Positions 60,808 through 64,000 of a DNA stretch of 64,000 bases are shown here, in pieces (position 1 is the first letter of the stretch; each line of letters begins with the position of its first letter). Source of the stretch: Haloglomus litoreum (lineage in GTDB: Archaea > Halobacteriota > Halobacteria > Halobacteriales > Haloarculaceae); contig NZ_CP119988.1 in assembly GCF_029338515.1 (NCBI RefSeq), forward strand, positions 4,588,001 to 4,652,000, written 5' to 3'. The notes under the pieces were generated by a model, which did no database searches, had not been told where the DNA came from, and saw only the letters and a list, made by a program, of their open reading frames with translations. The position numbers were made by a program, and so were the translations under genes.

Positions 60808-61084
60808 GCGGCGGCTCACAGAGCGGTCGTTCGCTTCGATCGCTACTCGGTACTCCGATGGGTGTTCGGAGTCGGCATCGGATGCAGACGGTGGGGGCGA
60901 CGGGCGAGCGCACTGCGTCGCTTCTGACAGGTAACGTCGATCTTCGAGGAGTGATGCTGGATACAGCGCGCGAATACAGCAGGTCCGACATCGAGGTGTG
61001 AGTCAGCGTAGAGAGGTGATTTGTATAAATACCATCGACATCACTGTTTCAGGTATTAGTAACCGCCTGTCGTACGACACGCCA
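60808..61084. other. intergenic region before the HTH cluster
   Basis: 277 bp with no supportable gene. GC falls steeply after about 60990. Contains the 16-bp element at 61031-61046 and TATA-like sequences (TGTATAAAT at 61022-61030, TATTAGTAA near 61054-61062). Confidence 0.5.
61031..61046 (+). promoter_or_regulatory. 16-bp element shared with the HalOD1 promoter
   Basis: ACCATCGACATCACTG, identical on the opposite strand to 63138-63153. Lies upstream of the TATA-like TATTAGTAA, which is centred about 29 nt before the ATG of the leader ORF at 61085. The inner CATC-GA-CATC is a direct repeat. Candidate activator or repressor site for an HTH_10 protein. Confidence 0.6.
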
Positions 61085-61156
61085 ATGGACTGTTTGTGGG
61101 TACGGACAATGGACTGTGTTGCTGGACCAGCCCGACGAGGTCAGTTGGTGGCATGA
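61085..61156 (+). CDS. 23-residue leader ORF coupled to the HTH gene
   Basis: ATG 61085, in frame to TGA at 61154-61156, so the stop overlaps the HTH ATG (61153) as ATGA. The peptide starts MDCLWVRTMDCVAG and ends RRGQLVA; MDC occurs twice. The TATA-like site centred about 29 nt upstream suggests leaderless translation of this ORF, followed by reinitiation at the HTH gene. Confidence 0.4.
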   Translation: MDCLWVRTMDCVAGPARRGQLVA

Positions 61157-61827
61157 GCGTTGTTGCTCAATTCACCATTCCCGCAACCCAGTTCGTCCTC
61201 GGTGAGCTACTCGAAGTCGGGAGCGGGCCCGAAATACGACTCGAATCAGTAATCCCGACTGGGGACTCGGTCGTGCCCTACTTCTGGGTGGGCAACGAAC
61301 ACGCCGATGCCGTCCAGGCGGCACTCGAAGAATCCGAGTTCGTCGACGAGGTTACGATCGTAGATGGCTCACAGTCAGAGACCCTGTTTCGCGTCGTGTG
61401 GGCCAACGATGTCGATGGATTATTCGGCCTTATCCGTGACACTGACGCCGCCCTGTTAGAGGCCGAGGGACTGGGTGACGACTGGGTCTTCCGGATGCGG
61501 TTCTCCGAGCGTGAGTCACTCTCCGAGTTCTATCAGGCCTGCATCGAGAAGGGGTTCACACCAGACTTAGAAGAAGTGAACAGCCCGTTCAGCTCTGCCG
61601 ATATCAGCAGTTTCGGCGTCACCGAGCCCCAAAAAGAGGTACTTCTCGCCGCCCTGGAGAATGGTTACTTCGACGTTCCCCGGGAGATCAACCTTACCGA
61701 CCTGGCCGACGATCTGGACATCTCGGATACGGCAGCGTCACAGCGCATCAGGCGCGGAATGAAGACGCTGCTGTCTGGCACGCTCGCGGCCCGTGAGAAG
61801 CGAGAGACGGACAGTGACGACGAGTAG
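61153..61827 (+). CDS. HTH_10 bacterio-opsin activator-type regulator A
   Basis: 224 residues from ATG 61153 (MSVVAQFTIPATQFVLGELLE). N-terminal sensor-like domain with IRLESVIPTGDSVVPYFWVGNEH, a second beta part (DWVFRMRFSERESLSEFYQACIEKGF) and a C-terminal HTH_10 at about 160-210 (QKEVLLAALENGYFDVPREINLTDLADDLDISDTAASQRIRRG). DNA-binding regulator. Very similar to the gene at 63164-63856 (shared PYFW, YFDVPR.INLTDLA). Codon use is less GC-biased than the rest of the window, consistent with transfer. Confidence 0.9.
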   Translation: MSVVAQFTIPATQFVLGELLEVGSGPEIRLESVIPTGDSVVPYFWVGNEHADAVQAALEESEFVDEVTIVDGSQSETLFRVVWANDVDGLFGLIRDTDAALLEAEGLGDDWVFRMRFSERESLSEFYQACIEKGFTPDLEEVNSPFSSADISSFGVTEPQKEVLLAALENGYFDVPREINLTDLADDLDISDTAASQRIRRGMKTLLSGTLAAREKRETDSDDE

Positions 61828-61975
61828 CTAATCGGTCCGCCAGTCACAGCCGTTGTGGAGTCTCGGTGTCCAGTGACAACCCCGTCGAGTGACAGGAATG
61901 GACGACGCTACTGGCACGCTCGATACGGAGTTTATTATAATAGACTTCTCTATCACTGCATAGGCCGCATGCACG

Positions 61976-62092
61976 ATGCGTGAAAATAGTCTGGTGAGGT
62001 CGAACAGTGGTTGTGGTCGCATGAGTAACCACAGTGCTCGCAGGGCGAGCGCTGTCGAACCCAACTCCATGAGAGGCCAGGCGAGGAGATGA
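61976..62092 (+). CDS. 38-residue leader ORF coupled to the second HTH gene
   Basis: ATG 61976 to TGA 62090-62092. The stop overlaps the HTH gene's ATG (62089) as ATGA. The peptide is Arg/Ser-rich (MRENSLVRSNSGCGRMSN..., ending GQARR). TATA-like TTATTATAATAG at 61931-61942 puts the transcript start just upstream of this ORF. Same layout as the ORF at 61085. May only be a spacer, but the repeated arrangement is notable. Confidence 0.4.
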   Translation: MRENSLVRSNSGCGRMSNHSARRASAVEPNSMRGQARR

Positions 62093-62814
62093 GTCTCTTC
62101 GTCGACGTGGGCCTCTCTGTAACTGCAATCCCACCTGGTGGCATCGTCCCAATCCAGACTGACGTGACACTCGAACTCGAACGGGTCGTGCCGACGGCAA
62201 GCACAACACACTTTCTCTGGCTCGTCGGCGAGAACCACCACCAGTTCCTCGAGGACCTGCGAGGCGAGTCTGCTGTCGAGTCGATCACCGTACTCGACGA
62301 GTTCGACGACCGGGTGTTCGTTCGCCTCCACTGGAACGTACTGGAGAATCCGTTTCTCGACCTGCTCGACGAGAGTGACGTGGTCCTTGTGGAAGCACGG
62401 GGAACGGCGGATGGGTGGGAGGCCACACTCCGGTTTCCCGACGAAGCGACACTCAGAACCTTCTACGAGGCCAGTGAACAGGGTGAACACGGAGTCGAAC
62501 TCCGTGCGATCAACGGTGCACGAGTCGACGAGCGTGGGGGCACGGACGTGCTCTCCCCCGTACAACGGGAGACGCTCGAGGCAGCCTTCGAGGCCGGGTA
62601 CTACGACGTGCCACGGGCGATTACGATCGCCGAACTCGCAGCGCAACTCGACCGCTCAGAGCAGGCGGTCTCAGAGGCGCTCCGGCGAGCGACGGCGAAT
62701 TATTTGCGGGCGACGCTGCAACAGGGAGAGCCGAGTGAGACCGACCCCGACGACGAGGGCGAGGCGAGCGGCACCACAGCTCGCACGGATGCCGAAACTG
62801 ACGGTGACTGCTGA
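62089..62814 (+). CDS. HTH_10-type regulator B (divergent sensor domain)
   Basis: 241 residues. N-terminal sensor-like domain (TLELERVVPTASTTHFLWLVG, VFVRLHWNVLENPFLDLLDE) and an HTH_10 at about 160-215 (QRETLEAAFEAGYYDVPRAITIAELAAQLDRSEQAVSEALRRATANYL), then a charged tail. More diverged than A and C. A purine-rich GAGGAG lies just before the ATG. Its 3' end lies 3 nt from the convergent HalOD1 gene. Target unknown. Confidence 0.87.
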   Translation: MSLFVDVGLSVTAIPPGGIVPIQTDVTLELERVVPTASTTHFLWLVGENHHQFLEDLRGESAVESITVLDEFDDRVFVRLHWNVLENPFLDLLDESDVVLVEARGTADGWEATLRFPDEATLRTFYEASEQGEHGVELRAINGARVDERGGTDVLSPVQRETLEAAFEAGYYDVPRAITIAELAAQLDRSEQAVSEALRRATANYLRATLQQGEPSETDPDDEGEASGTTARTDAETDGDC

Positions 62815-62817
62815 AAC

Positions 62818-63090
62818 TCACGTCTCGGTCGAGCCAGCGGATTCGACGGTCGGCTCTCGGACCTCGATATCGGTGGCCGACCGGACACTGACCTCGTACC
62901 CTGCATACGAGAAGAGGACCGTCGGGGCGGTTCGCTCCGCCGAATCAGCGCTGGCGTGTGCGTATAGTGCCTCTAGTGCGTCAGGTTCGATCGCTTCGTG
63001 AAGCGGCGGCAGAGCCTGTGAATCAGCTCCGCTGGCTCGTGCGACGGCCTCGACGACGCGAGCACTGATCGAACTCTCGGTCTGAGTCAT
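62818..63090 (-). CDS. HalOD1-domain protein
   Basis: 90 residues. Single HalOD1 output domain: ISARVVEAVARASGADSQALPPLHEAIEPDALEALYA, then a beta hairpin VLFSYAGYEVSV. HalOD1 is a haloarchaeal output module often attached to or found near response regulators. The promoter has the 16-bp element followed directly by TATTTATATA on the minus strand, centred about 37 nt before the ATG. Probably a signalling partner of the HTH proteins in this cluster. Confidence 0.85.
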   Translation of the reverse strand: MTQTESSISARVVEAVARASGADSQALPPLHEAIEPDALEALYAHASADSAERTAPTVLFSYAGYEVSVRSATDIEVREPTVESAGSTET

Positions 63091-63137
63091 GACTGTGAAC
63101 TCTTATCAAGGGGGCCGGCCCCAACGTATATAAATAG

Positions 63138-63163
63138 CAGTGATGTCGATGGTTTATCCATCG
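63138..63163 (-). promoter_or_regulatory. 16-bp shared element plus 17-bp palindrome upstream of HalOD1
   Basis: Minus-strand ACCATCGACATCACTG (63138-63153) sits 1 nt before a TATTTATATA box for HalOD1. It overlaps a palindrome CGATGG-TTTAT-CCATCG at 63147-63163, which ends at the stop of regulator C. Looks like an operator (and possibly transcript-end hairpin) for regulator C and HalOD1. Confidence 0.6.
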
Positions 63164-63856
63164 TTATGAATCTTCAACAGTTGGTTCCGTGTCGTCAGTC
63201 GTCTCCGCCTGGCCCTGGGCGAGCGTCGTTCTGAGGAGTGCTGCGGTGCCTCGTGAGATCCGTTGTTTCGTCGCCGTGTCCGAGAGCCCCAGTTCAGCAG
63301 CGAGGTCCGTGAGGTTGATGTTCCGAGGCACGTCGTAATACCCCGCGTCGAGCGCGGTCACGAGTGCTTCTCGCTGTGCCTCGGTGATGTCGAACCCGAG
63401 GCCGAGCGTCTCGGGAATACCGGGGTTGTGGATGGACTGGACGTCGATCCGGATGTCGCGGTCGATACACTCCCGATAGAACGTCGAGAGGTCGTCGTGG
63501 TCGGGAAAGCGAAGCGAGAACGTCCAGGTGTTGGCTTCGCCGACCCCTTCGAGGATCGTCCCATCGGCCGTTGCCAGTGCATCGAGAACCCCATCGATGT
63601 CCTCGGCCCACTGGGCACGAACGAGCGTCTCACCGTCGATCGAATCGAGAATCTCGAAGGAATCAACGTCGTCGTCTGCTTCGAGCGCGGCTTCGATGGC
63701 GTCGATACTGTCGTCCGATGCCCAGAAGTACGGGATGAACGTCGACCCGACGGGGATGACCCGTTCGAGGCGAACGCGAATGCCCGGATTCTCGCTGAGT
63801 GCCGAGTCGAGGACGAACGCATTCGCCGGGAGTTCAACGGTTGCGAGGACACTCAT
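63164..63856 (-). CDS. HTH_10 bacterio-opsin activator-type regulator C
   Basis: 230 residues from ATG 63856 (MSVLATVELPANAFVLDSALSENPG), chosen by alignment to regulator A (MSVVAQFTIPATQFVL). Sensor-like domain with RVRLERVIPVGSTFIPYFWASDDS, and a C-terminal HTH_10 (QREALVTALDAGYYDVPRNINLTDLAAELGLSDTATKQRISRG). A frame from ATG 63928 reads through a G10 tract into this gene; with 9 G it would instead end in ATGA at the start, as in A and B. Upstream of HalOD1 on the same strand, with 73 nt between. Confidence 0.9.
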   Translation of the reverse strand: MSVLATVELPANAFVLDSALSENPGIRVRLERVIPVGSTFIPYFWASDDSIDAIEAALEADDDVDSFEILDSIDGETLVRAQWAEDIDGVLDALATADGTILEGVGEANTWTFSLRFPDHDDLSTFYRECIDRDIRIDVQSIHNPGIPETLGLGFDITEAQREALVTALDAGYYDVPRNINLTDLAAELGLSDTATKQRISRGTAALLRTTLAQGQAETTDDTEPTVEDS

Positions 63857-63862
63857 GCCTCT

Positions 63863-63872
63863 CCCCCCCCCC
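63863..63872. repeat. homopolymer C10 (G10 on the coding strand) upstream of regulator C
   Basis: Ten consecutive C on the plus strand, 7 nt before the ATG of regulator C. Slippage would change whether the upstream reading frame (from 63928) fuses to the regulator or ends in an overlapping stop. It could also be a sequencing length error. Confidence 0.75.
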
Positions 63873-64000
63873 GCTCGGACACGGTTGAAACTGGGTACGT
63901 GCGTCACCGTTGTGTGGCTGATTGACATCTCGTGTGGCCCCTCGGGAACACGTGGGAACTCATTGTGTCCCGCGCGGCGGCCACGCGAAGAGAAACGAGG

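Follow-up and report, generated by a model that had tools for sequence, protein, structure and literature searches.

Conserved short reading frames with ATGA overlaps as candidate translated leaders of BAT/HTH_10 regulators in haloarchaea

The last 3 kb of the stretch of DNA analysed here (the window; 64,000 nucleotides, G000:C1:4588001-4652000 of the 4.7-Mb haloarchaeal chromosome of Haloglomus litoreum, where G000 denotes the genome of the window) encode three regulators and a small HalOD1 protein (Pfam). In all three regulators the matches to both the BAT (PF15915) and the HTH_10 (PF04967) domain exceed the curated Pfam cut-offs, which places them in the BAT/HTH_10 group. Regulators 1 and 2 are each preceded by a short open reading frame (ORF) whose TGA overlaps the ATG of the regulator as ATGA, and this arrangement is conserved in their orthologs from five genera and in a sister clade of these regulators from 18 genera. 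Based on these comparisons, the short ORFs are most likely leaders that are translated irrespective of their sequence and act by termination-reinitiation coupling, on regulators that would be autoregulated.

Leader ORFs of regulators 1 and 2 and their conservation in five genera

The features of regulators 1 and 2 in the window are as follows.

61024-61031, + strand: TATA box TATAAATA of regulator 1, from sequence; Haloarcula pelagica (G406) keeps the entire block from here through the leader ATG
61033-61046, + strand: operator-like site CATCGACATCACTG of regulator 1, one of four matches in the genome
61085-61156, + strand: leader ORF 1, 23 codons; its TGA (61154-61156) overlaps the regulator 1 ATG (61153) as ATGA
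61153-61827, + strand: regulator 1, BAT and HTH_10 (Pfam); clade with supported orthologs in four other genera
61932-61941, + strand: TATA-like box of regulator 2, from sequence; kept in H. pelagica
61945-61958, + strand: operator-like site CTTCTCTATCACTG of regulator 2, match to the genome pattern; kept in H. pelagica
61976-62092, + strand: leader ORF 2, 38 codons; its TGA (62090-62092) overlaps the regulator 2 ATG (62089) as ATGA
62089-62814, + strand: regulator 2, BAT and HTH_10 (Pfam); supported clade

The initial annotation of this DNA had described leader ORFs of 23 and 38 codons with ATGA overlaps at these two regulators, and TATA-like boxes from which transcription would begin ahead of them. 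The coordinates confirm the overlaps, and the two boxes place the predicted transcript starts about 30 nt (leader 1) and about 15 nt (leader 2) upstream of the leader ATGs. The frame of leader 1 stays open upstream as far as a GTG at 60998, and within leader 2 an inner ATG at 62021 gives a frame of 23 codons. Ahead of leader 1 and downstream of the predicted transcript start there is a perfect palindrome TGTCGTACGACA (61068-61079), which is identical in H. pelagica and is a possible second binding site.

If such frames arose by chance, because GC-rich DNA has few stop codons and the regulators begin with ATGAGC, then they should be found without any selection, and the window taken by itself does little to argue otherwise. 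By dinucleotide shuffling, a gene with an ATGA start in this setting would have an exact ATGA leader of 10 or more codons in about 6-20% of cases, and 4 of the 26 G000 genes with such a start have a frame of this kind (regulators 1 and 2, another BAT gene and cases of short upstream genes being excluded). An initial generic control, in which the count was 16/43, was inflated by short upstream genes and was replaced by the 4/26 obtained once these were removed. With a base rate of about 12-17% per gene, two such frames in one window are unremarkable, and the 2/2 leaders within the window are weak evidence; it is due to the comparative data, and not the window alone, that the leaders are significant.

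The three regulators also occur together in Halorarius halobius (G031), in G395 and G071 (other genera) and on the plasmid NZ_CP126164.1 of H. pelagica, and in a phylogenetic tree regulators 1, 2 and 3 form one supported clade each. In the regulator 1 and 2 genes, the sequence between the predicted start of transcription and the regulator was searched for a frame that opens with ATG, has 10 or more codons and closes exactly in ATGA, with dinucleotide shuffling as the null. An exact ATGA leader is present in 8 of the 10 regulator 1 and 2 genes from the five genera, versus 1.2 expected (P=5e-7); in the three held-out genera, i.e. excluding the window and its near copy, the count is 5/6 versus 0.7 expected (P=3e-5). 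The exact-ATGA criterion came from the finding itself. The two remaining genes have the leader stop 3 and 4 nt ahead of the regulator start; the looser coupling window that accommodates them was set after these stops were seen. Leader 1 has 23 codons and ends in ATGA in G395, has 35 codons and ends in ATGA in G031, and has 21 codons with the stop 3 nt before the start in G071, whereas leader 2 ends in ATGA in all (39 codons in G395, 30 in G071, 19 in G031 and 23 in H. pelagica). The distance from the operator-like site to the ATG of leader 1 is 52, 52, 53, 52 and 52 nt in the five genera, while the leaders themselves vary from 18 to 35 codons and are by eye unalignable beyond the pair formed by G000 and H. 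pelagica. For regulator 2 the position of the leader is variable, and in some genomes there are two chained frames. Of the earlier proposals, leader-coupled translation of this regulator family finds strong support for regulators 1 and 2, and also in the sister clade described below, but only weak support for regulator 3. The ATGA overlap is conserved in 5/6 genes of the held-out genera, but the refuting condition named in the initial annotation, homologous loci without the overlap, does occur in part, as the exact overlap of regulator 1 is lost in H. pelagica.

The position of the promoters bears on another explanation, viz. that leaderless transcripts begin with the regulator ATG, or that the regulator starts upstream in frame, in which case the leader is never translated. 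In Haloferax volcanii, 72% of the protein-coding transcripts are leaderless (PMC4983044), and some of the regulator frames are open upstream. However, regulators 1 and 2 show no AT-rich box at a distance of about 27 nt; the conserved, predicted TATA boxes are located 122-173 nt from the regulator and precede the leader ATG in 10/10 regulator 1 and 2 genes. Further, the regulator frame has 25 stops across 36 leaders, and the conserved leader frame would be left without a reason. This explanation is considered very unlikely.

Leaders in a sister clade from 18 genera

In the tree, a sister clade of these regulators is seen in another family (f7); the search for its members yielded 44 single-copy orthologs from 18 genera, of which 43 were read. 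In the promoter of these genes, a TATA box is combined with CTTCGATATC(T/C/G)AA; a GATTCTTGTAAG-like block comes next and then the leader ATG, which in most cases is at operator+61 to +63 (55, 58 or 75 in three genera). In comparison to this near-fixed distance, the leader length ranges from 31 to 55 codons. The leader ends in ATGA in 38 of the 43 genes, and in two more as TGA-G-ATG, 1 nt before the start. When one representative per genus is considered and the ATG is picked by position, blind to the outcome, 17/18 have an exact ATGA versus 2.6 expected (P=3e-14), where the 18 genera share ancestry and are not independent draws. From genus to genus the sequence of the leader has been replaced but its arrangement has persisted, which points to selection. 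Together with the P values for the held-out genera and for the 18 genera, the 28 and 25 stops carried by frames +1 and +2 of the leaders leave an origin of these frames by chance with a negligible probability; only a grossly inaccurate shuffling null would save it from refutation.

For regulators 1 and 2 and the sister clade taken together, the stop-start spacing is -4 to +4 nt in 50/53 genes (-4 nt in the window). Both partners are on the same strand, and the spacing falls in the range of about -8 to +10 nt by which a translationally coupled pair is recognized. The 43 natural variants of the leader, including the losses and an uncoupled case, can be used to test initiation and reinitiation in archaeal 5' regions.

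What is conserved in the leaders

In 13 close pairs, substitutions in the leader at codon positions 1, 2 and 3 number 56/491, 90/490 and 76/478, respectively, and the 60 nt preceding the leader ATG change less (45/779). The absence of a third-position excess indicates that there is no amino-acid selection on the leader peptide. The indels inside leaders are of 3, 6, 9 and 3 nt, all multiples of three. The leaders are rich in arginine (22% versus 16% in other frames) with many CGA codons, and these codons, along with the fewer substitutions at position 1, would be consistent with stop codons being avoided in the leader frame. A conserved peptide or a run of regulatory codons, as in leaders of the attenuator or arrest type, was not found; the codon-position counts show no amino-acid conservation, and the arginine excess is the only departure. 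Likewise, neither an Rfam family nor a conserved RNA structure indicative of a riboswitch or structured leader was found. At the regulator start, matches of 4-5 bases to a Shine-Dalgarno sequence exceed those in random leader windows, yet they are absent or short in about half of the genes, and hence such a sequence is not required. These observations suggest that position, frame and stop-start spacing are selected and that the peptide is not.

Another proposal would be that the peptide itself matters, either as a functional small protein or as an arrest or attenuation peptide with a sensing role. The arginine richness of the leaders and the similar beginning of leader 1 in G000 and H. pelagica (MDCL) are in its favour. 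However, in view of the lack of a third-position excess, the peptides that are unalignable between genera, the frame-switched peptide in the DUF7344 leader described in the next section and the lack of a conserved RNA structure, this proposal is very improbable.

The operator-like site and the HalOD1 and DUF7344 genes

The pattern YHTCKMHATCACTG has four matches in the whole genome: two lie before regulators 1 and 2, one before the HalOD1 gene and one before a DUF7344 gene located just beyond the window (start at genome position 4652435). Of eight genomes of the sister clade, six have a single match to the TATA-plus-operator pattern, always in the promoter of the regulator itself, and the other two have none. 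The site is restricted to the cluster of the regulators themselves, as is characteristic of an autoregulated operator, and the natural reading is that the regulators would control their own cluster through it. The HalOD1 features of the window are given below.

62818-63090, - strand: HalOD1 protein, 90 aa (Pfam), without a leader
63138-63151, - strand: operator-like site CATCGACATCACTG of the HalOD1 gene, match to the genome pattern; variant CATCTATATCACTG in H. pelagica

The DUF7344 gene, the fourth of the cluster, falls outside the HTH_10 group. Its leader of 62 codons starts at operator+58 and ends in ATGA in G000 as well as in H. pelagica, indicating that the leader follows the promoter type rather than HTH_10 genes alone. 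Between these two genomes, two compensating indels alter the middle of the leader peptide and restore its end and the overlap.

Proposed mechanism and its exceptions

In Haloferax volcanii, termination-reinitiation coupling has been experimentally established for overlapping gene pairs with spacings of -4 to about +10 nt; it drops clearly at 13-14 nt and is nearly gone at 22-23 nt (PMC6728339, PMC10666635). The spacings of -4 to +4 nt reported here are inside this window, and the most likely course is that ribosomes begin on the leader, terminate at its end and then reinitiate on the regulator. In the mechanism that we propose, an operator-like site beside the TATA box would be followed at a near-fixed distance (about 52 nt for regulator 1, 61-63 nt in the sister clade) by the start codon of a leader ORF of about 20-60 codons, where the ribosomes would load. 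After translating the leader they would terminate at the TGA overlapping the regulator ATG and then reinitiate on the regulator, and the leader would thereby set the amount of regulator made per transcript, for regulators that act on their own cluster through the operator. The conserved frame and start position of the leader provide indirect evidence of its translation.

A number of observations weigh against this interpretation. In H. pelagica, leader 1 (18 codons) stops 4 nt ahead of the regulator and lacks the exact overlap, and leader 2 has ACG in place of its first ATG but retains the inner ATG; the coupling distance is maintained for both regulators despite these losses. In the sister clade, one genome (G358, L167) is uncoupled, and two others (G266, L193; G383, L199) have no leader, the regulator itself starting at operator+64/65, i.e. 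in the leader's place; hence, the leader is dispensable. The HalOD1 gene has the operator without a leader, and regulator 3 does not follow the rule. Finally, the role in dosage is one that we infer, and the transcript start, leader translation, reinitiation and autoregulation are in this case predicted from sequence.

Some of these exceptions are accounted for if ribosomes are delivered passively, i.e. if the promoter fixes the place of loading and the leader just carries the ribosomes to the regulator, which leads to the same anatomy with no metering or control. The concept has been reviewed for prokaryotes (PMC12548453), and it fits with the shift of the regulator start to the loading site where the leader is lost (G266, G383), as well as with the start of the HalOD1 gene 61 nt after its operator. 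However, a spacer of 90-165 nt has been retained in nearly all genomes of the sister clade though its deletion is evidently possible, and pure delivery does not need it. Passive delivery is the main rival explanation and a tenable one, which we nevertheless consider to be somewhat improbable. The stronger form of the proposed coupling is that of a dedicated archaeal translational control, in which a translated leader of no particular sequence, kept at a set distance from an autoregulatory operator and selected only for its frame, start position and stop-start overlap, meters the synthesis of transcription factors by termination-reinitiation in two haloarchaeal lineages and is also found at the DUF7344 gene; whether it applies is in our judgement evenly balanced.

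Relationship to known systems

The haloarchaeal overlapping gene pairs described by Huber et al. (2019, PMC6728339; 2023, PMC10666635) are similar to the present cases in their ATGA overlap (-4 nt), shared strand and spacing within the coupling window. However, both partners of those pairs are ordinary genes, often for subunits of one complex, whereas here the upstream partner is a short frame without a conserved peptide. Upstream ORFs (uORFs) of 15-31 aa in 5' untranslated regions (UTRs) of Haloferax volcanii are listed in Table 2 of Babski et al. (2016, PMC4983044), and 2 of the 16 precede HTH-10 genes, viz. HVO_A0121 and HVO_A0413, with uORFs of 17 aa and mapped transcript starts. These resemble the present leaders as short 5'-UTR ORFs ahead of HTH-10 regulators, but in the part of that report drawn on here ATGA coupling, operator spacing and conservation of the architecture are not described, and the low isoelectric points given there differ from the arginine-rich leaders seen here. 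Most haloarchaeal mRNAs are leaderless, and the same study judged control by structured 5' leaders to be not typical (PMC4983044).

The ribosome-delivering short ORFs reviewed in PMC12548453 are likewise proposed to function through the act of translation and not through their peptide, but they are mainly bacterial and have no tie to the operator of autoregulated archaeal regulators. With regulators of the bacterio-opsin activator type, the three proteins share both the BAT and HTH_10 domains, whereas the operator here is found at their own cluster only. In the open-access literature no description was found of an archaeal leader that is conserved and coupled, independent of its peptide and linked to an operator. 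The suggestion of the initial annotation that this control layer is undescribed must be restricted: ATGA coupling in haloarchaea was known and uORFs before two HTH-10 genes had been listed in 2016 (PMC4983044), but the conserved leader architecture appears to be new. The comparison suggests that a non-protein reading frame is retained for translation alone, before regulators that apparently control themselves.

Regulator 3 and other BAT genes

The features of regulator 3 in the window are the following.

63856-63164, - strand: regulator 3, BAT and HTH_10 (Pfam); supported clade
63857-63928, - strand: possible leader of regulator 3, uncertain; fused in frame to regulator 3 via the G10 tract (63863-63872)

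The frame starting at ATG 63928 runs in frame into regulator 3 through ten G residues. The initial annotation held that nine G would restore the ATGA overlap, which is arithmetically right and matches the frame of H. pelagica, where the ATG at 63928 is ATA, G10 is replaced by G5, and the homologous frame begins further up and ends in ATGA after 31 codons. The length of the G10 tract decides between fusion of the upstream frame to regulator 3 and an ATGA ending, and the tract is possibly a slippage site or a sequencing error. An ATGA leader is present in three of the six regulator 3 orthologs (G031 and G027, 11 codons each; H. pelagica, 31 codons), none is found in G395 and G071, and the whole-genome pattern revealed no operator for regulator 3 in G000. 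The case for a leader of regulator 3 is weak.

Among 46 other BAT genes with an NTGA start, 17 have a leader versus 7.8 expected; this excess is modest and does not support a leader in every HTH_10 gene. Some of these leaders (those of the CATGATGTGTCATG / ATGGTATACCAAG palindrome class) owe their ATG to an operator-like site, and this site may precede the start of transcription. A palindromic site of a different kind (ATGGTATACCAAG or GCATGATGTGTCATGC), often followed by CTTTTGTACG, is found upstream of the BAT genes of another clade (L051, L029, L028, L059, L053, L064, L013, L032, L030), and in some genes of this clade ATGA frames of 19-20 codons begin inside the palindrome.

Occurrence and horizontal movement of the cluster

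The region formed by 60970-64000 of the window and positions 4652000-4652781 of G000 (about 3.8 kb) exhibits 84-90% DNA identity to NZ_CP126164.1 of H. pelagica, which is a different genus, and no match to the cluster was found in three other genomes of the window's own genus. Due to this combination, the cluster has probably been moved horizontally. Its G+C content is 62% versus about 71% in the remaining window. As regards integration linked to a tRNA, no tRNA gene was found within the 20 kb examined.

In H. pelagica (G406, L155, 8000-9350), a transposase gene (1254 nt; TnpB-like by eye) lies between the HalOD1 gene and regulator 3, and the extended cluster of this species has additional BAT, HalOD1 and DUF7344 genes. 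The annotated start of one of its DUF7344 genes (RS23135; L161, 12477-12860, - strand) seems too late; the missing start of the domain is encoded just upstream in another frame, which ends in ATGA, and because of this the gene looks frameshifted. In the circular NZ_CP126164.1 record (L161, L156), about 9 kb near its two ends are 99.9% identical, which suggests redundant assembly ends.

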